Source: an uncultured Bacteroidia bacterium (GTDB lineage Bacteria > Bacteroidota > Bacteroidia > Bacteroidales > UBA932). From it: a stretch of 64,000 nucleotides of DNA. The translations under genes and the position numbers were made by a program. Of this stretch, positions 9,157 through 29,114 are shown in pieces. The DNA lies in the NCBI GenBank assembly GCA_902785785.1, contig CADAAA010000008.1:1-64000 (forward strand), read 5' to 3'. Under the pieces are notes generated by a model, which was given only the letters and a program-made list of their open reading frames with translations, was not told the DNA's origin and did no database searches. Position 1 is the first letter of the stretch, and the number at the start of each line of letters is the position of its first letter.

Positions 9157-9963
9157 CTACATTGAAAGTATACGTTCGGTTTCTTCCCAGATGCGGAGGT
9201 CCAGGTTGGGATCCTCGAACCGCGCAGGGATGTCCATGATTTTCCGTCCGACGAAATAACGGTTCCGCCCGTCAGAAGCCAGGGCTGAAAGGGCCGGCTG
9301 CACTCCCCTTTCGGGAGACTTGCAAAACGGGCGGAACAGGATGTCGGCCAGAGGGTCGAACCAGTGCCCGAGGTCTATCATGTTGGAATTGACGATGCCG
9401 GGGTCGGCAAGGTTGATATGGAGCCCGGGATTGCGCCGGGCGAGCTCACGGGAAAACCGCAGCAAGGCAAGTTTCGACCGGGCATAGGTCCCGAGTTGGG
9501 AGAATTCATCAGCCGAGGGGCGCAGCGATTTTTCGGTCACGGAAACGTACCGGCATGTCAGCGAAATCATGTTCACGATACTCGCCTCCGGATCCATTAA
9601 TGGTAACAGGAGACGGGTAAGCAGAAACGGCCCGAAGTAATTGACAGCGAACGTGTTCTCCAGAGCGTCACCGGTAAGCGAATAGCCACGGCTGATAACG
9701 CCGGCGTTGTTGAAAAGCGCGGATACCTGCTCTTGGCCGAGGCTGTCGGCAAAAGCCCTTACGGAGTCGAGCGAGGAGAGGTCGAGCCGGCCGATGGAGA
9801 TATCGGCCCCTGGCAGATCCGCAAGAATGCGGCTCCGCACGGCCTCGGCCTTCTCAAGGTTCCGGCAGGCCATCACCACGCTCCGGCCGTCACGGGCGAG
9901 AGCGCGTACCGCTGCCTCGCCCATCGCGCCGGAGGCGCCTGTCACTATCGTCCTATTTCCCAT
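9157..9963 (-). CDS. Short-chain dehydrogenase/reductase
   Basis: A 268-residue cytoplasmic NAD(P)-dependent oxidoreductase. The Rossmann motif TGASGAMGEAAV lies at the N-terminus, RNLEKAEAVRS suggests NADP preference, LFNNAGVISRG is the NNAG motif, and YARSK holds the catalytic Tyr and Lys. The sequence resembles the retinol-dehydrogenase/protochlorophyllide-reductase-like branch of the family. It overlaps the upstream PCMD-domain gene by 11 bases and belongs to the same operon as a 5-alpha-reductase-like protein, a flavin-dependent ene-reductase and another short-chain dehydrogenase. A hydroxysteroid dehydrogenase role is plausible but is inferred from these neighbours, not from a specific signature. 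Confidence 0.85.
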   Translation of the reverse strand: MGNRTIVTGASGAMGEAAVRALARDGRSVVMACRNLEKAEAVRSRILADLPGADISIGRLDLSSLDSVRAFADSLGQEQVSALFNNAGVISRGYSLTGDALENTFAVNYFGPFLLTRLLLPLMDPEASIVNMISLTCRYVSVTEKSLRPSADEFSQLGTYARSKLALLRFSRELARRNPGLHINLADPGIVNSNMIDLGHWFDPLADILFRPFCKSPERGVQPALSALASDGRNRYFVGRKIMDIPARFEDPNLDLRIWEETERILSM

Positions 9964-10915
9964 ACTCCATCCTTAGATTGTCCACCCAGAGTGTATTGCC
10001 GGGAGCGCCTGTAAAACCTCCCTGGCAACCGGAAGCGATATGCAGGACCGCGTGGGTGCAAGGCGTGTCAGGAGATGCCCAGCCTTCCTCGCGTATGGGT
10101 ACCCGCTTGCCCCTGCTGTTGACGGCATACAATGTCTTTTCGCCGGAGATCAAACCCATATAGGACTTGTAGCCGGACTGGGTGCGGGCATCGCCGTAAA
10201 GCACGGGGATGCGGCAGTCCTTGACCCAGCCCTGCGTGCTCCTGTCGATGCGCATGACGGCAGTTCCGACACGCTCCGCGTGTATATTGCCGTCAGCATC
10301 CTCCCAGCGGCGCTGGAGCAGCAGGAGCACCTGGCAGGGATCATCCCCTGCGAACTCCGTCTTGCGGAAAGTGGTCCCGCGGACCAACTTCCCAGTGGCC
10401 GGAAGATAGGCTTTGTAGTCCAGCAGAAGTGCGTCCGGCCGTCCGGTAAACGGTATCCCCCAGTCCATGTTGGCATAAGGGTCCTTTACGCCCGTGATGG
10501 GCTCGAACATCTTTCCCCAATACAGCGAACCTGTGGCCAGCACCTGGATCTCCACCACGCCGGCCACGCGGCAGGAGGCGAATACGGTCGAGAGCTTGGC
10601 ACAACGGCCGGAAGGGCCGTTGTCTGGCTCGACCGAGAGGCTGGTCTTGGTCACGCCGGACACCCTGGCATACGCATTGGAGCTAGCCCAGGGCGTCTTC
10701 GAATAGTCATATACCTTGTTCCCTTCGATGACCTCGGCAGGGCCCGGGAGATAGAGCGTTTTCACTTCACCGCCGAGAATGGCGGACTCCTTGATATGGC
10801 GCACGGTCCAATGCTCGAAATCCCCGAACCTGAGCTTTTCGATACGCTGCGCGGACAGCGGCATGACGCCCGCCAAGAGGAGCAGGATGCTTATTTTAAC
10901 TTTTTCCATAGCCAA
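9953..10915 (-). CDS. Secreted PCMD-type (putative carbohydrate metabolism) domain protein
   Basis: A 320-residue exported protein with signal peptide VKISILLLLAGVMPLSAQ. The pattern resembles the PCMD domain of Bacteroidota: FEHWTVRHIKESAILGG at the start, GPSGRCAKLSTVF, ATGSLYWGKMF, the MDWGIPFTGRPDALLLDYKA core, and WVDNLRMEYGK at the end. Such proteins are thought to bind or process carbohydrate, but no reaction is established. Both ends overlap neighbours (25 bases with the upstream dehydrogenase, 11 with the downstream one), showing tight co-translation. An exported carbohydrate-type domain inside a steroid-reductase-like operon is unexpected and could hint at a glycosylated substrate. 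Confidence 0.7.
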   Translation of the reverse strand: MAMEKVKISILLLLAGVMPLSAQRIEKLRFGDFEHWTVRHIKESAILGGEVKTLYLPGPAEVIEGNKVYDYSKTPWASSNAYARVSGVTKTSLSVEPDNGPSGRCAKLSTVFASCRVAGVVEIQVLATGSLYWGKMFEPITGVKDPYANMDWGIPFTGRPDALLLDYKAYLPATGKLVRGTTFRKTEFAGDDPCQVLLLLQRRWEDADGNIHAERVGTAVMRIDRSTQGWVKDCRIPVLYGDARTQSGYKSYMGLISGEKTLYAVNSRGKRVPIREEGWASPDTPCTHAVLHIASGCQGGFTGAPGNTLWVDNLRMEYGK

Positions 10916-11655
10916 GCGACCAAAGATCCCGGAAGCGCAGCGATAACGGCCGGGAGCCAGACATTCATGAATGCAGGGCTCAGCACCCGTCTTCCGCGGT
11001 ACATTGCCCTCAGGCTGCGCCGTACCAGCCAGCGCGGAGTGCGGATGAGACCGACACGTACCCCGAGCTTCATCAGTTTCGGATCAAGCCTGTACAGAGG
11101 CGTGGCGATCGCGGCAGGACAGACTGTTGTCATCCCCACACCGTAGGGCTTCAACTCATATGAGAGCGAGCGCCCGAAACTGCGGAGATATGCCTTGGAT
11201 GCGGAGTACACAGTGATGCCGGGAACAGGAAGCCTAGCAGCCATGGAGGAGACATTGAGGATATAGCCGCCCCCCCGCTCCTTCATGGCGCTGCCGAAGA
11301 GCAAGCACATACGTGTGACGGTATTGACATGCAGGTCCAGCATAGCCTGCACCTTGTCCAGGTCCGCCACCTCCAACTCCTTGAAGAAGAACATCCCCGC
11401 GTCATTGACCAGAACGTCCGGAAGTATCCCCTCTGAAGCACAGCGGGAGTACAACTCATCGGCAGCTTTCGGCTGCGCAAGGTCCTGGAATATGGTCCTG
11501 ACCTTCACCGGGAACTCTGCCGAAAGTTCCGCCGATGCGGAAGCCAGCTGGTCCTCGCGGTTGCTCACGAGCAGCAAATCATACCCGCGGGCTGCGAGTC
11601 CGCGGGCGAATTCAAGCCCCATCCCGGAGCTTCCACCCGTTATCAGTGCGACCAT
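10891..11655 (-). CDS. Short-chain dehydrogenase, candidate 3-beta-hydroxysteroid dehydrogenase
   Basis: A 254-residue enzyme: TGGSSGMGLEFARGLAARG is the cofactor motif, VNDAGMFFF takes the place of NNAG, VSSMAARLPVPGITVYSASK carries the catalytic Ser, Tyr and Lys, and KPYGVGMTTVCPAAIATPLY is the loop after the active site. The C-terminus is hydrophobic (VWLPAVIAALPGSLVAWLW), which suggests membrane association. Size and sequence style match the dehydrogenase found beside 5-alpha- and 5-beta-reductase genes in gut Bacteroidota that make isoallolithocholic acid. Here it overlaps the flavin reductase by 13 bases, and the 5-alpha-reductase gene is next beyond it. Direct activity on the 3-position is inferred from this arrangement. 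Confidence 0.8.
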   Translation of the reverse strand: MVALITGGSSGMGLEFARGLAARGYDLLLVSNREDQLASASAELSAEFPVKVRTIFQDLAQPKAADELYSRCASEGILPDVLVNDAGMFFFKELEVADLDKVQAMLDLHVNTVTRMCLLFGSAMKERGGGYILNVSSMAARLPVPGITVYSASKAYLRSFGRSLSYELKPYGVGMTTVCPAAIATPLYRLDPKLMKLGVRVGLIRTPRWLVRRSLRAMYRGRRVLSPAFMNVWLPAVIAALPGSLVAWLWKKLK

Positions 11656-12893
11656 CTCTCCTCAGCCTTGTCAATCTCGCGGCGCAGTGCGGGCGGCAGT
11701 TCGCCCGCGCAGCGGTTGCATTTCATTTCCAGGGTATACATCCTGCCGATGCAGTAGTTGGAGTGGCGGCATTCACTGCGCTCCACCTCACCACTCTTCA
11801 ACTTATTTACGAAATCGGTGTCGCGGACAAGCGCCCGCGCCATCTGCACGGCCGCGAATCCGCAGCCGAGCACTTTCTCGATGGATTCACGCGACACCAT
11901 GCCGCCCACATAGACCAGCGGCAGGCTGAGCTCCTTGCGGAACTCCAAGGCATCTTCCAGGAAATAAGCGTCCTTGTACGGGACCGTGGGGATGATCACA
12001 TGCCCGAACAGGCGCACCATCGCCTTGAGCCACCAGAACTTCTTCATGTCCATATAATGCGCCAGGGTGCGGATGGGCATGGCTCCGCGCATCACTTCCA
12101 TAGGCGCCTTGCTCACGAATCCCGCAGAAAGGACGATGGCATGGACGCCGAGCCGTTCGAGCTCCCTCGCGACCTCCAGGCATTCCGCACGCTGCATTCC
12201 CCTGCGGAAGCCGTCGTGCATGTTCATCTTGACCAGCACTCCCATATCGTCTCCCGCCTCCTTCATGACGCGCTGGATGACCATGCGCATCAGGCGCATG
12301 CGGTTCTCGAGCGAACCCCCGAAACGGTCATGCCGGTGGTTGGTGTAAGGAGAGAGGAACTGGCTGATCAGATAGCCGTGGCCGGCGTGGATCTCGACGC
12401 AGTCGAAACCAGCCCGGCGCGCCAGGCAGACTGCGTTGCCGAAATCGTCCACCAGAGCATCTATCTCCTCCTCGCGCAGCGCACGCGCAAATGTCGGAGA
12501 ATAAAGGTTGAATCCTCCCGACGCCCCTACGGGCATGCATCCGCAGGTGGACCTGTGCGTCATGTTGCCGCAATGCCCGAGCTGGATAGACGCCTTCGCC
12601 CCCTGGGCATGCACGGCGTCGGTGATCTCCTTCAGCTCGGGTACGATCTCCTCACGCATCCACAGTTGTCCGTCGAACGACAGTCCGCTCCGGTTCACGG
12701 AGGCATATGCCAATGTGGTCATCCCGACTCCTCCCCTGGCAACGGCGACATGATAGTCCATCAGGTCCTTCGAGGGCCTGTTGCCATAGGCCATGTTCTC
12801 AAATGCAGCCGAACGGATGATGCGGTTGCGAAGGGTGACAGGGCCTATACTTACCGGAGTAAAGATATCTGATTCAATAGCTTGCATTCTCAT
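11643..12893 (-). CDS. Old Yellow Enzyme-type flavin oxidoreductase, candidate 5-beta-reductase
   Basis: A 416-residue, single-domain FMN enzyme with family landmarks FTPVSIGPVTLRNRIIRSA, IQLGHCGN, EIHAGHGYLISQFLSPYTNH and DRFGGSLENRMRLM, plus a C-terminal Cys-rich stretch (SECRHSNYCIGRMY, MKCNRC) that could hold an iron-sulfur cluster as in the 2,4-dienoyl-CoA reductase branch. There is no C-terminal FAD/NAD module, so electrons come directly from NAD(P)H or a partner. It reduces activated C=C bonds. With a 5-alpha-reductase-like gene directly upstream and a hydroxysteroid-type dehydrogenase downstream, Delta4-3-ketosteroid 5-beta-reduction is the best guess. The start ATGA overlaps the upstream stop, which fixes 12893. 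Confidence 0.85.
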   Translation of the reverse strand: MRMQAIESDIFTPVSIGPVTLRNRIIRSAAFENMAYGNRPSKDLMDYHVAVARGGVGMTTLAYASVNRSGLSFDGQLWMREEIVPELKEITDAVHAQGAKASIQLGHCGNMTHRSTCGCMPVGASGGFNLYSPTFARALREEEIDALVDDFGNAVCLARRAGFDCVEIHAGHGYLISQFLSPYTNHRHDRFGGSLENRMRLMRMVIQRVMKEAGDDMGVLVKMNMHDGFRRGMQRAECLEVARELERLGVHAIVLSAGFVSKAPMEVMRGAMPIRTLAHYMDMKKFWWLKAMVRLFGHVIIPTVPYKDAYFLEDALEFRKELSLPLVYVGGMVSRESIEKVLGCGFAAVQMARALVRDTDFVNKLKSGEVERSECRHSNYCIGRMYTLEMKCNRCAGELPPALRREIDKAEERWSH

Positions 12894-13663
12894 CAGAAGA
12901 TAAAGGGAATGATCCGTTTGGTCTTTTCCGGATCGAATTCGCCGGGGAAATCACGCGCATACATGTCATGGATACGGGCAGCACGCGGAGCGAGGTTGGC
13001 GAAGGTCCAGAGCGCGAATACCGCACCGGACCAGGACCATGTAAGGATGGCGAAACCTGTCCACTCGACAAACTCGCCGAAGTAATTGGCGCTGGTCACA
13101 TACTTGAACATCCCGCCTTTGGGCAGGTAGTGCGCCGTATCTCCCGGTTTGCGAAGATTCCTTATGATGGAGTCCGAACGGATATTGACCGCCATCCCGT
13201 AGAAGAATACGGCTGTTCCGAAAAGGAAAGGCAGGCTTCCCAACCAGTTGGAAGGATAATATTCGGCCGGAGACAGGTAGAATATCCATCCGCCCTGCAT
13301 GAGCGCGTTGAGGGTGTTGAACAGTGCCCCCATCAATATGATGCTGAGGGGCATCGTACCGTTCCCCCTTATCTGCAACGGGAAGATGAACGAACGGTGG
13401 AAATAATGAAGCTCGAAAAGCAAAAGGAACACCAGCCGCACCGGATCGGTCCTCCGGTCGGAGAGCCACCACAGCAGAAGCATGGCCACGAAGACAGGTG
13501 CCTCCATGAGCATCCAGCCGAGACGGTTCCCCAATCCGGGGCCCCATTTCGGCTGGTAGAACTTCCCGTATCCGGCGTCGACGAAGAACAGGCTGATGAA
13601 CACCACGACGGCGATCAGCGCCATCACGATCAGGAAGACCTGGAATGCATGCAGTGAGACCAC
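12893..13663 (-). CDS. Membrane steroid 5-alpha-reductase-family protein
   Basis: A 256-residue integral membrane protein with six to seven helices. The C-terminal half has the family's NADPH-binding features: NIRSDSIIRNLRKPGD, PKGGMFKYVTSANYFGE, FVEWTGFAILTWSW and RAARIHDMYARDFPGEF, with Asn/Tyr/Glu positions as in eukaryotic 5-alpha-reductases. The family reduces the Delta4 bond of 3-oxosteroids to the 5-alpha configuration. It sits 6 bases after an alpha/beta-hydrolase gene and overlaps the flavin reductase by one codon position (ATGA). This enzyme, the flavin reductase and the short-chain dehydrogenase reproduce the three-gene set known from gut Bacteroidota that convert 3-oxo-Delta4-lithocholate. 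The substrate in this organism is not proven. Confidence 0.88.
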   Translation of the reverse strand: MVSLHAFQVFLIVMALIAVVVFISLFFVDAGYGKFYQPKWGPGLGNRLGWMLMEAPVFVAMLLLWWLSDRRTDPVRLVFLLLFELHYFHRSFIFPLQIRGNGTMPLSIILMGALFNTLNALMQGGWIFYLSPAEYYPSNWLGSLPFLFGTAVFFYGMAVNIRSDSIIRNLRKPGDTAHYLPKGGMFKYVTSANYFGEFVEWTGFAILTWSWSGAVFALWTFANLAPRAARIHDMYARDFPGEFDPEKTKRIIPFIF

Positions 13664-13669
13664 GCCGCC

Positions 13670-14749
13670 CTACCAGTTCTTCCTGTCGAAGGTCCACTCG
13701 GGATAGAGGGTCTTCTCGTACTCGTCATTCATGAACAGGGCCGAATCGGCCGTCTTGCCCTTGAGCTGCCAGTTGAGCCACATGCGGGCCACGACGGCGA
13801 AAGCGCCGGCATTCTTCTCGTAATATGTGCCGTGATGGCCGTCCAGGGTGGAAATCTTCACCACAGGGATGTCATCCGCAATCCTGCCCCAGTCGCCGTT
13901 GGCGTTCTCGAAAGCGACGTCAGCGGTACCGCCGTTGATGTAGAGCATCGGGGTGTGGAGATTGGCGAGGGAGCCCTTGGAGGCGCCGCTCATCGACATC
14001 TCACCGATACCGGAATTGAATATCATACAGGTCTTGATCCTGGGATCGTGGGCGACGGCGAGCACCTGAGCGCCACCGCAGGACTGTCCCATAGCGGCGA
14101 CCTTCTCAAGGTCGACGAGATGATAGTACTCACTCTCGGGATTGGCATTCTGGTCCGTGAGCCAGTCCAAAGCCTCCAGAAGCTGCCTGGCATATGTACG
14201 GAACGGAGCCGGAGCGGGTTCGGCGTTCTTCTTGTTCCTGTTCTTCTTGGCAGCTGCGGCGGCGGCCTTCTGCGCGGCTTCGCGCTCGGCGGCCTGCGCC
14301 GCCAGCTCAGCCTCGGTGTAAGGGGTCAGCCTCTCTCCGTTCCCCATAATGGCTACGGGCTTGGTCTCGGGATACCATCCTCTCACCACGCCTTTCCACT
14401 GCTCGTAGAAACGCTCGTCCGGCATGTCCTCGTAAGGTCCGATGGCAAGGATGAGGTAGCCGTACGAGGCGACTTCACTCAGGAGACGGCTCATCTCGAG
14501 GCTGTTGTTGGCGCAGGCGCCGTTGGCATAAAGGAGTACCGGGATCTTGCCGTTGGCGGCTACATAGCCTTTGAGGTCCAGAGGACGGTAGATCATGTGC
14601 GTAGGAAGGCTGGCGTCGCCTATGGCAGCGGACTTGTACTCTCCCGTTCCTCCGTTTTCAATGACCTGGAGCTGGTCGGTCTGGGCTGAGCAGAGCGCAC
14701 CGGCGGCGACAAAAGCCAGCGCAAGTGCAAGAAGTTTCTTAGTGATCAT
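13670..14749 (-). CDS. Secreted alpha/beta-hydrolase
   Basis: A 359-residue exported hydrolase with signal peptide (KKLLALALAFVAAGALCSAQ) and nucleophile elbow MGQSCGGAQVLA; the Ser is followed by Cys. PVLLYANGACANNS gives the oxyanion region, MLYINGGTADVAFEN carries a likely acid Asp, and DGHHGTYYEKNAG the His. Residues of about 148-175 are an Ala/Lys/Glu-rich insertion (EREAAQKAAAAAAKKNRNKK, then NAEPAPAPF), predicted helical and very basic, which normal members lack. It heads the steroid-reductase run, 31 bases below the GH120 gene and 6 above the 5-alpha-reductase gene. An esterase that frees an acyl or ester-conjugated substrate is plausible. The closest relatives act as esterases or dienelactone-type hydrolases. 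Confidence 0.78.
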   Translation of the reverse strand: MITKKLLALALAFVAAGALCSAQTDQLQVIENGGTGEYKSAAIGDASLPTHMIYRPLDLKGYVAANGKIPVLLYANGACANNSLEMSRLLSEVASYGYLILAIGPYEDMPDERFYEQWKGVVRGWYPETKPVAIMGNGERLTPYTEAELAAQAAEREAAQKAAAAAAKKNRNKKNAEPAPAPFRTYARQLLEALDWLTDQNANPESEYYHLVDLEKVAAMGQSCGGAQVLAVAHDPRIKTCMIFNSGIGEMSMSGASKGSLANLHTPMLYINGGTADVAFENANGDWGRIADDIPVVKISTLDGHHGTYYEKNAGAFAVVARMWLNWQLKGKTADSALFMNDEYEKTLYPEWTFDRKNW

Positions 14750-18376: not shown

Positions 18377-18410
18377 AAAACGGGAGCTTTCGAAGCTCCC
18401 GTTTTTTTTT
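18373..18410. terminator. Bidirectional terminator
   Basis: A 10-base stem (18380-18389 with 18392-18401, core CGGGAGC/GCTCCCG) has an A tract on the left and a run of ten T on the right. It ends the GH-A gene on the plus strand and, from the other side, the SusC-to-GH10 operon, whose last stop codon lies at 18409-18411. Confidence 0.9.
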
Positions 18411-19572
18411 ATTTGGGTATCGCAATCACACGATAGAACGCATCGTGCGGTGTAAGGTCCCTGCGGAATAACAACGGATAGTTGGTACGGCCGGGAACCG
18501 GATAACCGTTCTTCCATGAGCCTCCGTCCTGGACTCCCCAGAAAGTTACACGGTCGATCACGTCACGGTGGTCGTAGAAGATCTTGAAGAGCTCCTCATA
18601 CCTGTCGGCGAGCTGTTTCTCCACCTCGGCAGGGAGACCGTCCCTGTAGGGATCAAGGTACTCCTTGAACTCCTCGAGCTGGAACTGAGGATCCGACATG
18701 ACCTGGCCGATGACCTGGCCTTCCCTTGTAAGAGGGAGCACGTCGATGTCGATCTCGGTGATCATCACCTTGACGCCAAGCGCAGCAATCTTCTCGATAG
18801 CATCCACCACATACTGGTTCTTCGGATAGTTGAGTCCCCAGTGAGCCTGGATGCCGACGCCGTCGATACGGATGCCTTCTTCCTTCAGCATCTTCACGAT
18901 GTGAAGGACACCCTCAAGTTTGGAAGGACGCCATACATTGAACTCGTTGTAGTAGAGCTCGGTGTCCGGAGCATACTGCTCGGCGAAGCGGAAAACTGTC
19001 TTGACGATCTCGTCACCATACTCCTCGCCACCGAAAGCGTGGACCCAGCCCTTGTCGCGGTATCCGCCCTGTTCGGAGACGATCTCATTGATAACGTCCC
19101 ACGCGTCTACCCTGCCTTTAAAGTGGGTGCAGACGGTCTCGATATAGCTCCGGAGAGTCTCTACGAGCTCATCGTGACTCTTGGGATTGCCCTTCTCATC
19201 ATTCCAGAAGAATTCGGGAGTCTGATTGTGCCAGCACAGCGTGTGTCCCATAGTGAACATCCCATGCTCTTTGGCAAAATCGACATAGCGGTCGGCGCGT
19301 TCCCAGTTCCAGACATCCGGTCTGGGATGAAGGGACTCGGGCTTGAGTTCATTACCCGGGGTAAGCGAATTGAAGTGCTTGAGGATCAAGGCCTCATATT
19401 CGGGGTTGCGTCCGCTCACCTCAAACGAGCTGACGGCTGCACCGATCTTGAAGGCGTCCTTGTAAACATCCTTGAGTCCCGGTATCTCGGCCGGTTCCTT
19501 CGGTGCGGAGGAACAGGAGATGAGGGCAATCACGGCTGCCAGGACGATGCCCGTTCTGTTGAAAGCTTTCAT
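18409..19572 (-). CDS. GH10 endo-1,4-beta-xylanase lipoprotein
   Basis: A 387-residue lipoprotein (lipobox ALISC, Cys20). The GH10 barrel is complete: NSLTPGNELKPESLH, MGHTLCWHNQTPEFF, WDVINEIV with acid/base Glu163, YYNEFNVWRP, GVGIQAHWGLNYP, and MITEIDIDVL with nucleophile Glu273, followed by VTFWGVQDGGSW. It cleaves the xylan backbone to xylo-oligosaccharides, most likely at the cell surface. It is the last gene of the operon running SusC, SusD, accessory protein, GH43, accessory protein, GH43, GH10, with a 6-base gap to the GH43. This makes xylan (probably arabino- or glucuronoxylan) the likely substrate of the whole locus. Confidence 0.95.
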   Translation of the reverse strand: MKAFNRTGIVLAAVIALISCSSAPKEPAEIPGLKDVYKDAFKIGAAVSSFEVSGRNPEYEALILKHFNSLTPGNELKPESLHPRPDVWNWERADRYVDFAKEHGMFTMGHTLCWHNQTPEFFWNDEKGNPKSHDELVETLRSYIETVCTHFKGRVDAWDVINEIVSEQGGYRDKGWVHAFGGEEYGDEIVKTVFRFAEQYAPDTELYYNEFNVWRPSKLEGVLHIVKMLKEEGIRIDGVGIQAHWGLNYPKNQYVVDAIEKIAALGVKVMITEIDIDVLPLTREGQVIGQVMSDPQFQLEEFKEYLDPYRDGLPAEVEKQLADRYEELFKIFYDHRDVIDRVTFWGVQDGGSWKNGYPVPGRTNYPLLFRRDLTPHDAFYRVIAIPK

Positions 19573-19578
19573 AAAGGT

Positions 19579-21030
19579 TTATTTAACAGGTGAATAACAT
19601 CTGAAATCCCATTTGGAATTGTCGCTCTTGAAATCGAACGGAGCAAGCGTCGGGGAGCAGTCACCAAGGGAGACAAGAGCATAGGGCTCGTCGTGTCCGG
19701 GGATGGACTTCGGCATGATGCGGTAAGTTCCGTCGGTCAGCTGGTCGATACGCCATAGCTGCTCGGGAGCGCCGGTGAATGCCGGGACGGTCTCGACCTC
19801 AGCCTTGTCGTTTGCAGCCAGGGCGCGGTCAGTACCCGCGATGACAATCTTGTAGTAAGGACCGCCGAGATAGCCGCCGGCCTCGGGAACGGGGATAACG
19901 CTCCACCTCTGCCAAGGCCTGCCCATATAGTAGCCGTTCCTGGCCCCGATGACGCCTTCCGGCCAAGTGCCGGCGACATCTTCGAGTTTCTGCTCCTCAA
20001 GTACGACGTTGGGTTGAGGTTCATTGCCTCTGCCGAGGCCGCGCATCGCGCCCTGGGCGCGGATGAAGTCCACCTCAAGCTCGAGGGCGTAACCGCTTCG
20101 GACTGACTGGATCTCATACGTACCCTCGCGGAAAGCCTCGCCGGCCACCGGCCAGCCGTCTTTCCACAGGAGCGGGCGGATAGCCAGTACGCTCCTGCCG
20201 CTCTGGTCCATGTCGGCCTCCCAGTGGAAAGACATCTTCTCAACGCCTTCCTCCTCGATGTAACGTCCGAAATGGCCGGGGCCTACAAGCCTGCCTTCGG
20301 TAGTGACGACGGACTTGCCGCCGCCCTGGATCATGGAACGTCCGACATTGTCGATGAACGGTCCGTTGACGTTGCGCGAGCGTCCTACCACGATATTGTA
20401 GGTGGAGTTGACTCCGTCGCAGCAGGTTCCGTGAGTACCGAGAAGGTAATACCAACCGTCACGGTACATCATGGTCGAAGCTTCCATGTTCCTTCCGACG
20501 TCGATGGCTTCATTGCCCTCTACACGGAATCCGGTCTTGGGATCGAGCTCGACCTGGCGGATATGTCCGAAATAAGTACCGCAAGTAAGCCAGAGCCTGC
20601 CTGTGGTCGGATCCAGCAGGACTCCAGGATCGATGGCGTTGAAGTCCTCATCCACAAGCGATTCGCAAACCATCACGGGCTCGGAGTAAGCGAAGTCCGG
20701 GGAATCCGGATCGAGCGTCTTGTTCCACATCGTCATGATCTTGCTGGCGTGACCGCCACCCATTCCACCTCCTGTCGTTCCGTAGATGATAAGATAACGG
20801 TCTCCGATCTTAATGGCATCGGGAGCTGCACCGCCGCCTGGCCTGACGGCCCCGCTGTGCCAACTCCAGCCATCCTCTGAGATGAGACCGCCGCCGCCGG
20901 TACCGAAGGTGAAATACTTGCCGTCGCTCTTTACGATGGACGACGGATCATGGATATAGGGAGCACCCGTCTGGGCGTGCAACGATACTCCGGTGAGGAG
21001 TAAAATGCAAATGAATACTATCCTTTTCAT
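19579..21030 (-). CDS. GH43 enzyme with C-terminal beta-rich domain (copy A)
   Basis: A 483-residue secreted enzyme. The signal peptide ends LHAQ; the five-blade propeller begins PYIHDPSSIVKSDGKYFTFG with catalytic base Asp28. AIDPGVLLDPTTGRLWLTCG holds the pKa-modulating Asp, NMEASTMMYRDGWYYLLG the general-acid Glu, and GTCCDGVNSTYNIVVGRSR is typical of the arabinanase/xylosidase-like GH43 branch. The C-terminal ~150 residues (GAPEQLWRIDQLTDGTYRIM) read like a trefoil or beta-sandwich binding module with QLWR-type repeats. It probably releases arabinose or xylose units from (arabino)xylan. A close paralogue (copy B) lies 800 bases upstream in the operon, each preceded by a paralogous accessory protein. 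Confidence 0.9.
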   Translation of the reverse strand: MKRIVFICILLLTGVSLHAQTGAPYIHDPSSIVKSDGKYFTFGTGGGGLISEDGWSWHSGAVRPGGGAAPDAIKIGDRYLIIYGTTGGGMGGGHASKIMTMWNKTLDPDSPDFAYSEPVMVCESLVDEDFNAIDPGVLLDPTTGRLWLTCGTYFGHIRQVELDPKTGFRVEGNEAIDVGRNMEASTMMYRDGWYYLLGTHGTCCDGVNSTYNIVVGRSRNVNGPFIDNVGRSMIQGGGKSVVTTEGRLVGPGHFGRYIEEEGVEKMSFHWEADMDQSGRSVLAIRPLLWKDGWPVAGEAFREGTYEIQSVRSGYALELEVDFIRAQGAMRGLGRGNEPQPNVVLEEQKLEDVAGTWPEGVIGARNGYYMGRPWQRWSVIPVPEAGGYLGGPYYKIVIAGTDRALAANDKAEVETVPAFTGAPEQLWRIDQLTDGTYRIMPKSIPGHDEPYALVSLGDCSPTLAPFDFKSDNSKWDFRCYSPVK

Positions 21031-21045
21031 AATCTCAGTTCTTTA

Positions 21046-21831
21046 TCAGTTGCACGTAATGGTATATCCGGTTACAGGTTTTCCGGTGTCATCGATGAAA
21101 CGGGCGCAGAATTCGCTCATGCCGGGGCCGTTCATGGTGACGCCGCGAAGGATGTTCTTACCTTTCTTCAGGGTGACACGGTCGGATACGGCGCTGTCGA
21201 CTCCCATGTGGCGGTCACCCGCCAGCAGCAGCACCTCCTCGCCGTTGACCCACCATCTCGCAGCCTTGTTCGAGCCGACTGCAAGCCTGACGTTCTCGAT
21301 GTCTTCCTCGCAGTTAATGACGGTCACGGTCCAGAAGATGACGCCGTAACGGTCCTTGTCGAGGCCGGTAGCGAAGCGGAAGAGCTTGACGAAGAAATGG
21401 TCGCTGTCAAGGGCGTGCCAGGTCAATGTCGCCTTGACGAATTTCGGCTGGTCCTGCTGCGGCCGTGCAGCGGGACGGTTCGAACTCAGGTTTACCGGAG
21501 GCTGATACTCCATGGTGACCTTGACCTTGTCTCCGTCTTTGGGAAGGACTGTCAGCTGGTCAGGAAAGTACTCCACGCTGAGATTCTCACGGGTATAGGA
21601 GTCTGTAAAAACCCTGTTCGTGGGATTGGGCTTGCTGATCGGCTCGAGTATCATCCAGCGACGGATGAACCCTTCCGCATCCGGAGTAGCCGAAGGAGTG
21701 GTGACGGGCTTGAAATAGCCTTTCAGTGCCTCTGCCACGTCGATCTTGGAGTTCTTCTTCTGCGCCTGCACCTGGACCGCTGTGACCGCCATCAAGGCCA
21801 GGAGCAGAAGGATTCTGAAACTTCTTTTCAT
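21046..21831 (-). CDS. Exported accessory protein (copy A)
   Basis: A 261-residue exported protein with signal peptide (ILLLLALMAVTAVQVQAQ). It resembles the N-terminal non-catalytic domain found in front of Bacteroidota xylan esterases: EGFIRRWMILEPI, FFVKLFRFATGLDKDRYGVI, FWTVTVINCEEDIENVRLAV, RWWVNGEEVLLLAGDR, LKKGKNILRGVTMNGPG. That pattern suggests a galactose-binding-like beta-sandwich that presents substrate. No catalytic Ser or acid pair is evident, so a carbohydrate-binding helper is more likely than an enzyme. It contains an Asn/Pro/Arg/Gln-rich loop (PAARPQQDQPKF) absent from its paralogue at 23274-23987. It lies between the two GH43 genes with gaps of 4 and 15 bases. Confidence 0.72.
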   Translation of the reverse strand: MKRSFRILLLLALMAVTAVQVQAQKKNSKIDVAEALKGYFKPVTTPSATPDAEGFIRRWMILEPISKPNPTNRVFTDSYTRENLSVEYFPDQLTVLPKDGDKVKVTMEYQPPVNLSSNRPAARPQQDQPKFVKATLTWHALDSDHFFVKLFRFATGLDKDRYGVIFWTVTVINCEEDIENVRLAVGSNKAARWWVNGEEVLLLAGDRHMGVDSAVSDRVTLKKGKNILRGVTMNGPGMSEFCARFIDDTGKPVTGYTITCN

Positions 21832-21835
21832 TGTA

Positions 21836-23272
21836 TCAATGTTTTAATAGGTTCCACTTGGAGTTGTCGCTGTCAGGGTTGAATACGCCAAGTGACGGCG
21901 TACTGTCGGCAACGGAGACGAGAACGAGCTCCTCGTCCGTACCGGGAACGGATTTGGGCATTATCCTGTATGTCCCGTCGGTCAGGCGGTCGATTCTCCA
22001 CAATTGCTCGGGAGCACCGGTGAACTCGGGGACCGTGACAATCTCCTTGCCGGCAGTCGCGGCAAGAGCGCGGCCAGTTCCGGCGATGGTGATCTTGCAG
22101 TAAGCGCCGCCGATGAAACCGCCAAGTTCAGGGACTTCGGTAATTTCCCAGGCCTGGTGAGGCCTGAAGAGTTCGGGACCGATGCGGAGAGAAATCTCCC
22201 CTTCCGGCCATGTGCCGATGACATCTTCCAGTTTCTGGTCCTCAAGGGCCACGACATTGTCGTCACCGTTGCGGTTGAAACCTCTCATGCCACCGGCCAT
22301 CGGGACATTGTTGACGGCGAGTTCCAGTGCATAACCCCTCCTCTCGGAGACAAGGCTGTACTCTCCGTTCTCGAAAGGCTCACCGGCCACGGGCCAGCCG
22401 TCTTTCCACATCAGTGGACGGATGGCAAGTACGCTCCTGCCGCTGCGGTCGAGATCTCCCTCGAAATGGAACGACATCTTCTCGATGCCCTTGCCGACGA
22501 TGAAACGGCCGAAATGGCCGGCACCGATACGGCGGGGCTCGGAAGCGAGAACAAGCTTTCCTCCTCCATGGATCATGTCACGGCCGACATTGTCCACATA
22601 GGGCCCGGTAGGGCTCTTGGAACGGCCGACAATGATTTCGTAAGTGGAGTTGACCCCGCTGCAGCAGGTGCCGTGGGTTGCGAGCAGATAATACCAGCCG
22701 TCGTTGTAAGTCATCTCTCCGGCTTCGCAGGAGAGCGCTACATCGACAGGCTCGCTGATGGGCTGAGCAGTCTTGGGATCGAGCTCCCTGATACGCAGAT
22801 AGCCGAAATATGTGCCGTAGACAAGCCAGAGCCTGCCGTCGGGGCCCATCATGAGTCCGGGGTCTATGCCGTCGCAATCCTCATAGCCGTTCGACCCGCC
22901 AAGGTCCATCGGCTCAGAGTACTCGAAATCAGGGGATTCGGGATCCAGCGTCTTATTCCACATCGCATACACGTGGGAACTGTAACGAAGGCCGGAACCA
23001 TTGCCGGTAGAATAGACGACAAGATAGCGGTCACCGATCTTAATAGCATCGGGGGCGACTCCGCCGCCGGGGCGGACTCCGCCGCTGTGCCAATTCCAAC
23101 CGTCCTCGGAGATAAGGCCTCCGCTTCCGGTTCCGAACGTATAATACTTGCCGTCGCATTCGACGACGGTGGAAGGGTCATGGATGTACGGACTCCCTAT
23201 CTGTGCGGAAGCCACGATGGAGAGGAACAATGCCGTGAGGGCGGTAAGCCCGGATAATGCTGTCTTCTTCAT
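21836..23272 (-). CDS. GH43 enzyme with C-terminal beta-rich domain (copy B)
   Basis: A 478-residue paralogue of the downstream GH43. The signal peptide ends VASAQ; PYIHDPSTVVECDGKYYTFG gives catalytic Asp32, GIDPGLMMGPDGRLWLVYG the second Asp, and CEAGEMTYNDGWYYLLATHG the Glu region, followed by TCCSGVNSTYEIIVGRS. Here the Glu is followed by AGEM in place of the AST of copy A, a change near the catalytic Glu that may alter specificity. The C-terminal module (GAPEQLWRIDRLTDGTYRIM) is nearly the same in both. Adjacent genes are 1 and 4 bases away. The pair likely arose by tandem duplication of a two-gene block and may have split between arabinose- and xylose-releasing roles. Confidence 0.9.
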   Translation of the reverse strand: MKKTALSGLTALTALFLSIVASAQIGSPYIHDPSTVVECDGKYYTFGTGSGGLISEDGWNWHSGGVRPGGGVAPDAIKIGDRYLVVYSTGNGSGLRYSSHVYAMWNKTLDPESPDFEYSEPMDLGGSNGYEDCDGIDPGLMMGPDGRLWLVYGTYFGYLRIRELDPKTAQPISEPVDVALSCEAGEMTYNDGWYYLLATHGTCCSGVNSTYEIIVGRSKSPTGPYVDNVGRDMIHGGGKLVLASEPRRIGAGHFGRFIVGKGIEKMSFHFEGDLDRSGRSVLAIRPLMWKDGWPVAGEPFENGEYSLVSERRGYALELAVNNVPMAGGMRGFNRNGDDNVVALEDQKLEDVIGTWPEGEISLRIGPELFRPHQAWEITEVPELGGFIGGAYCKITIAGTGRALAATAGKEIVTVPEFTGAPEQLWRIDRLTDGTYRIMPKSVPGTDEELVLVSVADSTPSLGVFNPDSDNSKWNLLKH

Positions 23273-23273
23273 A

Positions 23274-23987
23274 TCACTTCTTCTTTTTAGGGAGTTCGCA
23301 AGAAAGCTTATAGCCTGTGACGGGGCGGCCGTTGCCGTCCACGAAACGCAGGCAGAATGTGGCCATTCCCTGGCCGTTGAGCACTGCTCCGCGAAGTATG
23401 TTCCTGCCCTTCTTGAGCGTCAACCTCTGCGACATGCAGTCGTCCACGATAAGGTCACGGTCGTTGGTGAGCCTGAGGACCTCCTCGCCGTTCAGATACC
23501 AGACGGCTCCGGAGTTCACTCCGCCAGCCAGCCGGACATCCTCGATATCCTCTTCGCAGTCGATGATGGCCACAGCCCAGTACATCTGCTGGAAGTACTC
23601 CTTGCCGTAGCCTTCGGCGAAGCGCAACAGGTTGACAAAGAATTTCTTTGAATCAAGCGAGTGCCAAAGGAGGGTGGACTTGCCATATTTGACTTTGGAA
23701 CCGTCCACGGGTATGACCGTGAACTGGTCCTTAAAGTATTCCTCGGACATGGTTTCCATGAGGAAGTTGTCCGTGAGCTGGGCATTGCTGCTGAAATTCT
23801 TTGCGATGGGTTCCAGGATAGTCCACCTGCGTATGAAGCCTTCAGAGTCCGGAGTAATAGGTTCTGCTGTAGCGGGAGCGAAGTAATGGCCGAGCTCCGC
23901 CCTCTCCCCTTCCCCTGCGGCGAAAGCCTGCAGGGAAAGAAGAGAAGCCGAAACAAGGCAAAGGATAGTTTTTACCCAGTGATACAT
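23274..23987 (-). CDS. Exported accessory protein (copy B)
   Basis: A 237-residue paralogue of the protein at 21046-21831. It has a signal peptide (ILCLVSASLLSLQAFAAG) and then the shared landmarks EGFIRRWTILEPIAKNFSSN, FFVNLLRFAEGYGKEYFQ, YWAVAIIDCEEDIEDVRLAG, VWYLNGEEVLRL and LKKGRNILRGAVLNGQGM. It is shorter because it lacks the proline-rich loop of copy A and ends in a Lys-rich tail (ELPKKKK). No catalytic residues are evident. It stands between SusD (25 bases) and GH43 copy B (1 base), so it is translated with the polysaccharide-uptake genes. Binding of decorated xylan or help to the GH43 partner is inferred from pairing alone. Confidence 0.72.
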   Translation of the reverse strand: MYHWVKTILCLVSASLLSLQAFAAGEGERAELGHYFAPATAEPITPDSEGFIRRWTILEPIAKNFSSNAQLTDNFLMETMSEEYFKDQFTVIPVDGSKVKYGKSTLLWHSLDSKKFFVNLLRFAEGYGKEYFQQMYWAVAIIDCEEDIEDVRLAGGVNSGAVWYLNGEEVLRLTNDRDLIVDDCMSQRLTLKKGRNILRGAVLNGQGMATFCLRFVDGNGRPVTGYKLSCELPKKKK

Positions 23988-24012
23988 GATAATTCCCTAT
24001 TAACCAATATTA

Positions 24013-25767
24013 TTACCAACCGGGATTCTGAACTATGTTGGGATTGATGGAAGTCTCGAGATCCGGGAACGGGAAGAGCTCGTGCTTGCCGGTCTTGAAG
24101 CCGTGCTCCTTGCCGTTGCCATAAGCGGGATCGTCGTTGAAGTTGTGCATGGTCACGACAGCATGATGCTCGGGAGTAGGATTCTCAGCATAGAAGAAAC
24201 TGTCCTTGAGGGTAGGAACCTCGGAACCTGCCTTCTTCATGCCGTCGAGGTCGCCCCAGCGGAGGCAGTCGGCGTAGCGGCAGCATTCTGTCCACAGCTC
24301 GAACTTCTTCTCCCTCTTGACGTTCTCGAGAGTGAGAGAGGTGACAGGGGCGGTGCCGCCGGCACGCCTCTGAATGTCATTCAGGGCCTTGAGGCCGCTT
24401 CCGTCGGTATCGCCGACGCGGGCGCAGCACTCAGCATACATAAGGAGGACTTCAGCATAGCGGAAGAAGAGATAGTTCGCCTCGCTCCAGCCGGAGTGTC
24501 CCTTGACGTCGTTGGGGCTGACGATTCTCTTGTACTGCAGATACTCGCCGTTGCCATAGACGCCGCGGAGGTCGCTGACACCCCTGAGGGGATCCTGGGT
24601 CTTGGGACCAACGACTTCCTGGCCGTTGACAGTCCACTTGGCATTGTTCTCATCGACATCCTGGGTGTAGTCAAGCTCGTACAGGACCTCGTCGTAGGAA
24701 AGGATGGAACCCTTGCGCCTGTAGGAGTCTCCGTCGTTCGCGACGAATTCCCTGGCGAAATCGACATTGACGCCGAGTCCGCCCCAGCCGTTCTTGTTCA
24801 TACCGACCTGGATAGGTACACGGGCGAAACGGTCACCTCGCCAGCACCACATATTGGCCTGCTGCCAGGTGGAATAGTTGTACATTACAGTGAAGGAAGA
24901 TACATTGGGATTGTAGGCGACATTGCTCTCGAAGATCTTCTCCTCGTTGCCATCACCCTCGACGTGGAACAGCTCGCTCCAGCGCTCGCCGGGTACAAGG
25001 GCATACTTGCCGGAATCGATGATCTTCTTGAGGACGGTCTTGGCCTTCGCATATTCCCCGAGGAAGAGGAGGCACTTGCCCTGGACGGTCCAGGCGAGAC
25101 CCTTGGTAGCGTGGAAGGTACCATCCTTGTCGGCAGTGCTCTTCCTCTCATCAAGATACGGAGCGGACTCTTCGCACTCCTTGGCACACCACTCGAGAAG
25201 GCCCTTCTGGCCGCCCTCATAGTTGCCGGGCTTGTCACTGCCTTCGAGGACGTGGTCCACGAGCGGAGGATTGCCCCAGTATATGGCAAGAGTCATATAG
25301 AGGAAGGCGCGAATGACCCTGGCCTCGGAGATGACCCTGTCCTTGACAGCGCTCTCGCCATACTTGAAGTTGTCAGTGACGAGGTTGGTGTAATAGATGG
25401 CAAGGTAGGAATTCCTGTAGAGGGTGGAGATGATGTAGTTGCTCGGATCGTAGCGGAACTCGTCCATCTCGGCCTGCCAGTCGTTGTTGCCGTACTCCTT
25501 GCAAGCGGCGTAGACGTCGTCACCGGGAAGGTTCTGGGCGAACATGTAGGCGGTGAAGATGTTCTGACCGATGGCCTTGATGGAACACATGTTGGTCGCG
25601 AATCCGTGATAAACGGAAGTCAGGGCAGATTCGGCATCCTCATCTGTCTGATAGAAGGACTCCATAGGGATCACACCTTTCTGCGGGATCTCAAGCAGTT
25701 CCTCGTTGCAGGAAGTGGTGAAAAGACCTGCAAGACCAATCATTATGATGAATAAAGACTTTTTCAT
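24013..25767 (-). CDS. SusD/RagB-family glycan-binding lipoprotein
   Basis: A surface lipoprotein of about 584 residues: KKSLFIIMIGLAGLFTTSC gives the lipobox Cys, then NEELLEIPQKG, the standard opening of the family. Tetratricopeptide-like helices follow (NSYLAIYYTNLVTDNFKYGE, ARVIRAFLYMTLAIYWGNPP), and the C-terminal region has FRYAEVLLMYAECCARVGD, ALNDIQRRAGG and REKKFELWTECCRYADCLRW. It captures oligosaccharides and closes over the partner SusC barrel. The start at MKK (25767) is preferred to the ATG three codons earlier. It is placed directly after SusC (15-base gap) and in front of xylan-acting enzymes, so xylan fragments are the expected ligand. Confidence 0.95.
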   Translation of the reverse strand: MKKSLFIIMIGLAGLFTTSCNEELLEIPQKGVIPMESFYQTDEDAESALTSVYHGFATNMCSIKAIGQNIFTAYMFAQNLPGDDVYAACKEYGNNDWQAEMDEFRYDPSNYIISTLYRNSYLAIYYTNLVTDNFKYGESAVKDRVISEARVIRAFLYMTLAIYWGNPPLVDHVLEGSDKPGNYEGGQKGLLEWCAKECEESAPYLDERKSTADKDGTFHATKGLAWTVQGKCLLFLGEYAKAKTVLKKIIDSGKYALVPGERWSELFHVEGDGNEEKIFESNVAYNPNVSSFTVMYNYSTWQQANMWCWRGDRFARVPIQVGMNKNGWGGLGVNVDFAREFVANDGDSYRRKGSILSYDEVLYELDYTQDVDENNAKWTVNGQEVVGPKTQDPLRGVSDLRGVYGNGEYLQYKRIVSPNDVKGHSGWSEANYLFFRYAEVLLMYAECCARVGDTDGSGLKALNDIQRRAGGTAPVTSLTLENVKREKKFELWTECCRYADCLRWGDLDGMKKAGSEVPTLKDSFFYAENPTPEHHAVVTMHNFNDDPAYGNGKEHGFKTGKHELFPFPDLETSINPNIVQNPGW

Positions 25768-25782
25768 ATTGCTCATTGGTAA

Positions 25783-28700: not shown

Positions 28701-28908
28701 GCGAGAAGTTTCCGTCAACGTCCGTGACGGTTCCCGTAGTACTGTTGCCCACCAGCATGACTGATGCGCCGATTACAGGCTGGCCTGTACCATCAAGCAC
28801 GGTGCCGGTGATGGCCCTCTGCTGTGCGAAAGCGCTCACCTGGCCGAAGATCGCTGCGATCGCCAATATGGCGAAAATGCGAAACTTGCTCTGAATTAGG
28901 TGTTTCAT
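25783..28908 (-). CDS. SusC/RagA TonB-dependent outer-membrane transporter
   Basis: About 1041 residues. The signal peptide (IFAILAIAAIFGQVSAFAQQ) is followed by a carboxypeptidase-like regulatory domain (ITGTVLDGTGQPVIGASVML), a TonB-box region (EETVVIGYGVQRKSDLTGSV), the plug domain with the SusC signature LLIVDGLKVDNISYLDPSMI and SIEVLKD-like SMEVLKDAASAAIYG, and the 22-strand barrel ending IVGGVSITF. It imports oligosaccharides bound by SusD using TonB energy. A longer reading frame to 29001 lacks signal character; the ATG at 28908 precedes MKHLIQSKF and fits the leader length. It is the first gene of a seven-gene operon ending at GH10 and is transcribed divergently from the hybrid regulator. 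Confidence 0.96.
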   Translation of the reverse strand: MKHLIQSKFRIFAILAIAAIFGQVSAFAQQRAITGTVLDGTGQPVIGASVMLVGNSTTGTVTDVDGNFSLTVPNGSTLSVSCIGYSTQTFVVGNQAVYNIVLQEDTEFLEETVVIGYGVQRKSDLTGSVSSIREEEFQNRSTSDAAAALQGKAAGIHIINSSGAPGASAAIRVRGYSSNSGNIGPLLIVDGLKVDNISYLDPSMIQSMEVLKDAASAAIYGAQAGNGVVLITTKSGSANNGRSSITYDYKLTRQTLGKKAEIFRAKDWIAYKQASGIDMEGAMAANKYDGTDTDWFDVVFEPTLSPQHSLSFQGGNNKGHFFTSLNYLKNNGIIVGDKDEYTRLSAQINADYQIYDWIQVGVNTSMESRSSKGVSQQGRYGSMLGSVLTIDPLTPVYYTDPQQFAPGMLEAYEKGQNIMKDPVTGYWYATSKYVDDDNGSPFIQRDKTDSTNEGLNFRGTLYANFTPFKGFTFTSRFGYRAAQSSSHSYSEPYYATKLAYTDNYSISASANTSRYYQWENFANYVLNLRKHAITLMAGMSYTENKSDNVSASASGPDILTGYEPNFRYLNYVNTNDNTTRTFSNAPGRSASLAYFGRLTYTYDNRYSFQVNFRADAFDSSKLSKASRWGYFPSFSAGWTVSNERWFKDNVNRDIVSFLKFRASWGRNGNVNVLSGYQYATSIGYNSKMYQFHYDDPTFSYGSAPNGLANPSLKWETSEQLDLGLDARFFNNRLTFGFDYFDKRTKDLLVSIAPIPEIGVNSTYVNAGSVLNTGLEFELSWKDNIGDFGYSISGNLSKLHNEVTFLDPSIYRLENGGLSYNNPFTTAFEVGYPIWYFRGYKYLGADHDSGQPMFEDAEGQTLVGNKVTDGDRKYIGKGIPDYTYGLTLNFDYKGFDLSIYGTGTIGNNIMNMFYQADSNMRNSLRYFYENAWTESNKDAYLPSCLSVANSWPFWASSGAMFDGSYFKIKQIQLGYSLPSSLTKKIFINRARVYVSIDDYFTFTKYPGFDPETATSGTSTNMGMDLGSYPTSRKIVGGVSITF

Positions 28909-28955
28909 AAAATAGAATTGAGTATTGGTTAAAATAAGTGTGATTTCAACTGGAC

Positions 28956-28963
28956 CAAAATTA
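28956..28963 (-). promoter_or_regulatory. -7 box of the SusC operon
   Basis: TAATTTTG read on the minus strand, about 48 bases before the SusC ATG. No TTG is found 18-21 bases upstream, which fits a promoter that depends on the adjacent activator. Confidence 0.5.
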
Positions 28964-29114
28964 CCGTTATATATATTTATGGAATGCCATTTACGAATCA
29001 TTTAATATAAAACGGTTTAACACTTACCCGGCTTTTTTACGAATTGATCCGCTATTTACAATACCAAACCAAAAGGTTTTACTTTTCACTATCTTTATCT
29101 GAAAATATCATTTT

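Follow-up and report, generated by a model that had tools for sequence, protein, structure and literature searches.

Two described systems of gut Bacteroidota frame the locus considered here. In Parabacteroides merdae and others, the gene for a steroid 5-alpha-reductase (5AR) is clustered with those for a predicted 3-beta-hydroxysteroid dehydrogenase (3-beta-HSDH) and an NADH:flavin oxidoreductase, a putative 5-beta-reductase, and disruption of 5AR in P. merdae abolished the derivatives of allolithocholic acid (PMC10382948). Flat bile acids, among them isoallolithocholic acid (isoalloLCA), are inhibitory to Gram-positive pathogens of the gut and have effects on regulatory T cells (PMC10382948, PMC11271093). 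The second system acts on the product class of 5AR: BT0416-type enzymes sulfate planar steroids (PMC12667688), and Bt_0416-like genes are described in a review as common in Bacteroidetes, with activity confirmed in P. merdae. Our subject is a cassette of steroid-type reductase and dehydrogenase genes in a 64,000-nucleotide stretch of DNA (the window; GenBank assembly GCA_902785785.1, contig CADAAA010000008.1, positions 1 to 64,000) from an uncultured Bacteroidales bacterium of the UBA932 lineage, whose genome (G000, the cassette being on its contig C8) measures 2.36 Mb and is 96% complete. We find that a 5AR, an Old Yellow Enzyme-type ene-reductase (OYE) and two short-chain dehydrogenases (SDR1 and SDR2) make up a conserved Bacteroidales cassette, and that an exported PCMD-domain protein is linked to it by gene order.

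The window cassette sits in a run of seven co-directional minus-strand genes (14749-7770), which encode, from 5' to 3', an alpha/beta-hydrolase, 5AR, OYE, SDR1, PCMD, SDR2 and an SGNH hydrolase. A 6-base gap separates the alpha/beta-hydrolase gene from 5AR; the next four junctions are overlaps (1 base for 5AR/OYE, 13 for OYE/SDR1, 19-25 for SDR1/PCMD and 11 for PCMD/SDR2), and SDR2 is followed by SGNH after a single base. A first-pass annotation of the window had placed these genes on one strand with overlaps or tiny gaps as far as the SGNH gene, and the coordinates together with Pfam confirm this placement, the family being verified for every gene of the run but the 359-aa alpha/beta-hydrolase. 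The arrangement exceeds what chance would give, because the same order recurs across many Bacteroidales families. A search of the 64 kb with the -33/-7 promoter consensus of Bacteroidales gave 4 matches where 1.8 were expected, none of them ahead of the operon.

The 5AR gene (13663-12893, GTG start, 256 aa) is the only PF02544 match in the source genome (142.8 bits, cut-off 22.6), and its product has three hydrophobic segments above threshold. Its nearest relatives of solved structure are 7c83 (E 1.6e-49), which we take to be a bacterial steroid 5-alpha-reductase, and human SRD5A2 (7bw1, E 3.2e-42), with very-long-chain enoyl-CoA reductase far behind (E 1.9e-8). The protein is identical to SRD5A2 at 88 of 229 aligned positions. 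Residues E57, Y91, N160, D164, R171, N193, E197, R227 and Y235 of the human enzyme are the same in the alignment, whereas H231 and some other checked positions are not kept; the numbering offset, and which of these positions serve catalysis or NADPH binding, are assumed. The assignment to the membrane 5-alpha-reductase family in the first-pass annotation is thus upheld, and the closest characterized relatives by sequence are steroid reductases rather than enzymes of fatty-acid or polyprenoid substrates. As a predicted SRD5A-type membrane enzyme with key residues in place, it is, judged from sequence, of the kind that defines the Bacteroidota 5AR clusters.

For the comparison of 5AR loci we took 40 chosen from matches in a genome sample and the best 80 of 580 named GTDB matches, a non-random set that came to 115 distinct loci after 5 duplicates were removed and in which some loci stop at contig ends. 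An OYE gene is present in 33 loci of the first set and 72 of the second, and it adjoins 5AR in 98 of the distinct loci. SDR1 and SDR2 each belong to the gene chain in 57 of the 115 (both in 29), and 5AR has no partner within reach in 12. The named carriers include Parabacteroides, Bacteroides, Phocaeicola, Coprobacter, Alistipes, Barnesiella, Heminiphilus and a metagenome-assembled genome (MAG) labelled Odoribacter. The 30 highest-scoring Bacteroidales PF02544 loci form a separate group, 34-41% identical to the window 5AR; none of the 30 has an OYE match in its short flanks, and 3 have an SDR at 25-26% identity. At four loci from MAGs labelled Bacteroides or Tannerellaceae (L136, L148, L162 and L164), 5AR is followed directly by SDR2, with no OYE match between or after them. 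In Parabacteroides massiliensis, the cassette comes after genes for an RND efflux protein of AcrB type (1035 aa) and a response regulator (L099:3857-8011), and steroid-responsive efflux is possible there. The efflux gene is Pfam-confirmed in L099 only, its counterparts in L071 and L101 being known by like gene size alone, and we rejected it as a general upstream partner, as Bacteroides locus L107 has aconitase and citrate synthase genes in that position instead.

The two dehydrogenases are readily told apart. SDR1 (11655-10891, 254 aa; PF00106, 132.3 bits) and SDR2 (9963-9157, 268 aa; PF00106, 82.4 bits) both keep YxxxK, with TGGSSGMG in the former and TGASGAMG in the latter, and SDR1 has a hydrophobic C-terminal stretch from residue 232 that suggests membrane contact. 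At none of 131 SDR places did the two proteins match with similar strength. Loci of named Parabacteroides, Bacteroides and Phocaeicola species read 5AR-OYE-SDR2 without SDR1; the exception is L125, from a MAG labelled Bacteroides, which has both. In five of six genomes of the Parabacteroides group (family f105, genus g107, so identified from a 5AR in G476 that is 96% identical to that of P. massiliensis), the best SDR1 match scores 44.8-48.6 bits, a background level when set against 551 for SDR1 with itself; the sixth, G419, has an SDR1-like match of 108.2 bits and 39% identity, far from its own 5AR. Given that Parabacteroides loci carry SDR2 without SDR1, and that the Parabacteroides SDR and SDR2 have the same three best NCBIfam families (PRK06197, PRK05854 and PRK06196), the 268-aa SDR2, and not the 254-aa SDR1, is the most likely counterpart of the published 3-beta-HSDH. 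The first-pass annotation had likened the operon to the isoalloLCA cluster; the likeness stands for the kinds of 5AR, OYE and SDR, which match those of the P. merdae-type cluster, and fails for SDR1, which had been cast as the 3-beta-HSDH, while SDR2, there regarded as an extension of the set, belongs to the conserved core. We propose that SDR1 would be an extra hydroxysteroid dehydrogenase, possibly of the 3-alpha type. The SDR1/SDR2 split offers a testable account of why 3-alpha steroids might be a starting point for some species, with others limited to 3-oxo or 3-beta forms. At L054:8938-9668, the SDR1 match falls into two pieces with a break between them, from either a broken gene or an assembly error.

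The OYE (12893-11643, 416 aa; PF00724, 192.2 bits) is a candidate 5-beta-reductase or Delta4-dehydrogenase. Its first 270 residues are YqjM-like, with HxxHxY at 169-174, and toward its C-terminus C375, C381 and C392 are invariant in all aligned rows with a residue at the position (33, 33 and 32 of 34), the L057 protein having an alignment gap at the third cysteine. The resulting C-x5-C-x10-C motif, kept in relatives, resembles but differs from the iron-sulfur motif of FadH (2,4-dienoyl-CoA reductase), presumably C-x2-C-x3-C-x11-C, in that it has one cysteine fewer; as the second cysteine of the FadH-type motif is missing, the protein may hold a cluster with an unusual ligand or no cluster. An apparent OYE-SDR1 fusion of 684 aa in L073 was rejected, a stop lying between the two genes.

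As to each reaction and the direction of its step, we propose the following scheme. OYE would interconvert 5-beta-3-oxo and Delta4-3-oxo steroids, the membrane 5AR would reduce the Delta4 bond to give the flat 5-alpha form and SDR2 would reduce the 3-ketone to a 3-beta alcohol. SDR1 would most likely act at the other end, oxidizing a 3-alpha alcohol, or else at another ring position. The net effect would be conversion of a 3-hydroxy-5-beta steroid or a Delta4-3-ketone to a 3-beta-hydroxy-5-alpha steroid, serving as an electron sink or for detoxification, and the exported PCMD protein would probably be a periplasmic or surface-located protein for the binding or delivery of planar steroids. We think it quite likely that the cassette flattens the steroid A ring in this way, with PCMD as an exported helper. 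The OYE and SDR families are catalytically broad, and one might suppose instead that these enzymes act on enones or lipids, for example the hydroxycinnamates of arabinoxylan (nearby exported esterases could free ferulate), and that 5AR acts on a polyprenoid or fatty substrate. We consider this improbable, as 5AR fits SRD5A2-type enzymes far better than enoyl-CoA reductase and the cassette persists without those esterases in Parabacteroides, Bacteroides, Alistipes and Barnesiella.

Planar-steroid flattening, then, is the setting in which we consider the PCMD protein (10915-9953, about 318 aa from a likely ATG at 10909). It has a signal peptide and no lipobox. Like other members of PF13201 it passes the family cut-off (73.3 bits against 28), and within the family it belongs to a distinct subfamily of short, single-domain proteins (306-327 aa, about 317 aa, exported in the rows read); the multi-domain PCMD proteins of the same genomes are 23-33% identical to this subfamily over part of the length. 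The single PCMD match of the source genome is the one in this operon, and in G407, G400, G409 and G349 the only match likewise lies in the cassette. Among 200 genomes of the genus, 90 gave a PCMD match, and we counted the 64 with at least 187 bits, the rest (up to about 37 bits) being dropped. Window-type PCMD (at least 53% identity) occurs in 20 of the 200, in 16 of them less than 4 kb from 5AR on the same contig; in the other four, 5AR is on another contig or fragment (two), a different 5AR type lies on another contig (one) or 5AR is missing (one). A second PCMD type, found in 44 genus genomes of which 41 have a 5AR, lies near 5AR only in G589. In 18 of the 115 loci PCMD stands next to the chain, whether downstream, upstream or divergent, and in G185 of family f81 it comes immediately after SDR1, some 13 kb away from 5AR (G081 looks alike). 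Both f81 genomes have two PCMD copies and three PF02544 matches each, with cassette genes spread over more than 10 kb. The simple idea that PCMD occurs only with 5AR was abandoned: it holds in 60 of the 64 genus genomes, but 23 of 58 PCMD genomes of the order have no 5AR.

A second partner emerged from the PCMD copies that lie away from 5AR. Six of 26 such neighborhoods, from families f60, f78, f88 and f105, have PCMD directly behind a CysC-CysD-CysN-sulfotransferase operon, the sulfotransferase being of PF13469. The operon of L218 encodes APS kinase, a PAPS-reductase-family protein that we take to be CysD and a GTPase that we take to be CysN. We then counted each protein in 393 genomes of the order: PCMD in 58 (61 at E 1e-10, less the partial or weak G224, G183 and G336), 5AR in 47 (about 118-156 bits, out of 155 that pass the Pfam cut-off, leaving aside partial and weak matches and the higher-scoring group, which begins at about 160 bits and is of the type that has no OYE) and the sulfotransferase in 30 (those of at least 565 bits out of 72 matched, the others being at 340 bits or less). 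PCMD is present in 27 of the 30 sulfotransferase genomes and 35 of the 47 5AR genomes, and one partner or the other occurs in 49 of the 58 PCMD genomes compared with 15 of the 335 that have no PCMD; 14 of the 23 PCMD genomes without 5AR have the sulfotransferase. PCMD goes with each partner even where the other is missing: it is present in 14 of 17 genomes that have the sulfotransferase but no 5AR, and in 22 of 34 that have 5AR but no sulfotransferase. The distance between PCMD and the sulfotransferase is at most about 200 bases in 13 genomes, which come from five families (f11, f60, f78, f88 and f105). A quick tree of 47 PCMD proteins has two sides (SH-aLRT 95), one holding all 5AR- or SDR1-linked copies except L109 and the other all six sulfotransferase-linked copies, with unlinked copies on both. 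Genome G106 provides the one case seen of both pathways close together: in L085, on a contig shared with L102 (the MAG labelled Odoribacter), a sulfotransferase gene and the 5AR cassette share a strand, the sulfotransferase being some 6 kb upstream (reverse-strand 928-2037 and 8302-9066).

A further-reaching scenario is that the PCMD subfamily belongs, as an exported component, to the planar-steroid metabolism of gut Bacteroidales. One branch would serve 5-alpha-reduction and the other sulfonation; the protein could, for instance, be a carrier in the periplasm or at the surface, for the loading or release of flat steroids. In the source species this steroid chemistry would be wired to xylan digestion. 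We place this scenario midway between doubt and acceptance. By sequence, the subfamily profile matches the solved proteins 4het, 3hbz and 4jrl (E 7e-8 to 5e-6), which are labelled putative or hypothetical glycoside hydrolases. Together with the Pfam name, this suggests a different view, namely that PCMD is a general envelope or carbohydrate protein of gut Bacteroidales that lies near steroid genes by chance. Nine of the 58 PCMD genomes have neither 5AR nor the closely matching sulfotransferase, among them G368, which is of the same genus and rated 100% complete, and our co-occurrence counts were assessed by Fisher tests that treat genomes as independent and ignore shared ancestry. Set against this are the varied positions in which PCMD adjoins 5AR or SDR1 in separate lineages, its place close behind the sulfotransferase in five families and the division of the tree by partner, L109 apart; a chance neighbor is a possibility to which we give some weight, short of preferring it. 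Alignment of the 47 proteins shows 47 columns that are at least 95% conserved, many of them polar (including E41, K88, E136, R201, E203, R213, E274, H286 and D310), which makes a binding or catalytic site plausible. We favor a carrier or binding protein for planar steroids, and hydrolysis of steryl glycosides is possible. The one literature search aimed at a link between PCMD and steroids gave no papers, which does not establish absence from print.

Several other observations weigh against the steroid cassette and the role proposed for PCMD. The substrates of SDR family members are not assignable by sequence, and the identities to the proteins of P. massiliensis (59% for 5AR and 61% for OYE) and to Parabacteroides SDR2 (40%) are such that the substrate could differ. 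5AR occurs without PCMD in 12 of the 47 order genomes, PCMD and the sulfotransferase are not adjacent in 14 of the 27 genomes that have both and, as noted, nine PCMD genomes have neither partner. Likewise, the PCMD-linked sulfotransferase is only presumed to be of the BT0416 kind, by family, operon content and taxon. Lastly, we found no credible bile-salt hydrolase (BSH) in the source genome, where at 96% completeness a gene could have been missed; its two PF02275 matches reach 36.6 and 26.6 bits, where the cut-off for BSH is 350, and agree better with the C45 model (70.8 and 94.8 bits against a cut-off of 85).

The last point bears on which steroid is used. In Parabacteroides and other Bacteroidota the homologous cluster yields isoalloLCA (PMC10382948, PMC11271093), and many 5AR loci come from fecal or hindgut sources, so that the cassette might be strictly one for bile acids, with lithocholic and deoxycholic acids deconjugated by neighbors and then flattened to isoallo forms. 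We entertain this tentatively, since the source genome has no credible BSH and some relatives, at 69-71% 5AR identity, come from sheep reticulum or from goat or buffalo abomasum, upstream of bile entry. The sources of relatives at 69-72% also include roe deer duodenum, buffalo cecum and horse feces. The missing BSH and the forestomach relatives make dietary (plant) sterols as likely a substrate as bile acids. In a narrower form of this idea, plant sterols or ketones freed during cell-wall digestion would be turned to stanols, and the cassette would be read together with the xylan-degradation genes of the source species. It follows a GH120-type gene and an exported hydrolase gene across gaps of 31 and 6 bases, near a SusC/SusD/GH43/GH10 locus; esterase genes flank 5AR-OYE in G395; and, besides the forestomach sources, BT0416 accepts beta-sitosterol (PMC12667688). 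We find this narrower form rather doubtful. In G407 and G400 the cassette lies amid housekeeping genes (topoisomerase, tRNA synthetase), and the GH43, SusC and SusD genes of the window are shared by none of nine genus loci with a window-type 5AR, so the xylan neighborhood may be accidental in fiber-degrading genomes.

The co-directional run extends upstream to the GH120-type gene (16838-14781, minus strand; PF21258, 147.1 bits), and beyond it a Pfam scan of the window detects an arabinoxylan-type utilization locus on the same strand (18409..29001) with GH10, two GH43, SusD, SusC and two genes without a Pfam match; the SusC/SusD pair with GH10 and the GH43 genes is what identifies such a locus. 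A 1301-aa gene near the run is taken as a hybrid regulator by its size and place. The exported, PETase/lipase-like alpha/beta-hydrolase (14749-13670, minus strand, 359 aa) falls just under the Pfam cut-offs (PETase 24.3 against 28, chlorophyllase 22.5 against 26); its gene is probably co-transcribed with the cassette and is outside the conserved set, as is the exported SGNH/DUF1349 protein (9155-7770, minus strand; PF16255 and PF07081, 209.6 and 204.2 bits), probably a polysaccharide esterase, which also has a weak GH43_C2 match under cut-off. Counterparts of these two hydrolases were found near 5AR in none of the 80 named loci and none of 20 loci of families f1, f2 and f4. The earlier suggestion that the exported esterases point to esterified or conjugated steroids does not hold up, for they do not recur near 5AR and they adjoin the xylan-type locus. 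Elsewhere in the window are a GCE_fung-type (glucuronyl esterase) gene (40749-42095) and a SASA-type carbohydrate esterase gene (42110-43591). Other genomes have carbohydrate-active neighbors of their own: a GH10-esterase and a PF00756 esterase are the genes that flank 5AR-OYE in G395, GH9 lies upstream of the cassette in G409 and a GH39-type gene downstream in G396. We tried the xylan neighborhood as a conserved partner and rejected it, as the genus cassettes showed, of the genes that neighbor the window cassette, only a GH10 at 34% identity (L053) and weak GH3-type and GCE_fung-type matches; given the housekeeping neighbors in G407 and G400, we claim no conserved xylan link.

We know of no protein that moves insoluble flat steroids across the envelope of the bacteria that make them. 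Gene order links PCMD to enzymes for making flat steroids as well as to those for sulfating them, which makes it a direct candidate for such transit. In addition, the forestomach relatives suggest that dietary sterols, and not bile acids alone, may be substrates of the pathway.

Set beside the known systems, the window OYE shares with BaiCD and the Clostridium 5-beta-reductases (ci2350) membership of the OYE superfamily, those enzymes acting on Delta4-3-ketosteroids (PMC11722256); it differs in length (416 aa against 642 model positions) and scores 185.5 bits with the BaiCD model NF041087, far below the cut-off of 825, the best stretch being residues 9-263. For the Firmicutes 5-alpha-reductases BaiP and BaiJ the same product stereochemistry is proposed as for our 5AR, and their authors set them apart from the membrane-associated Bacteroidetes enzymes (PMC9645264). 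The BT0416-type cluster (CysC, CysD, CysN and SULT) is like the present system in its planar-steroid class and in that a sister PCMD stands directly behind the PF13469 enzyme of such an operon; it is unlike it in that the close sulfotransferase had no match in the source genome at E 1e-10, and the likeness is one of family, operon content and taxon. The P. merdae-type cluster, compared by way of P. massiliensis and other Parabacteroides, likewise has 5AR, then an OYE-type flavoprotein and an SDR2-type dehydrogenase, and to these the window operon adds SDR1 and the exported PCMD. In its core the operon is a typical representative of a cluster type already known, with the assignment of the dehydrogenases corrected, and the surprise is the exported PCMD partner that would tie 5-alpha-reduction to steroid sulfonation.

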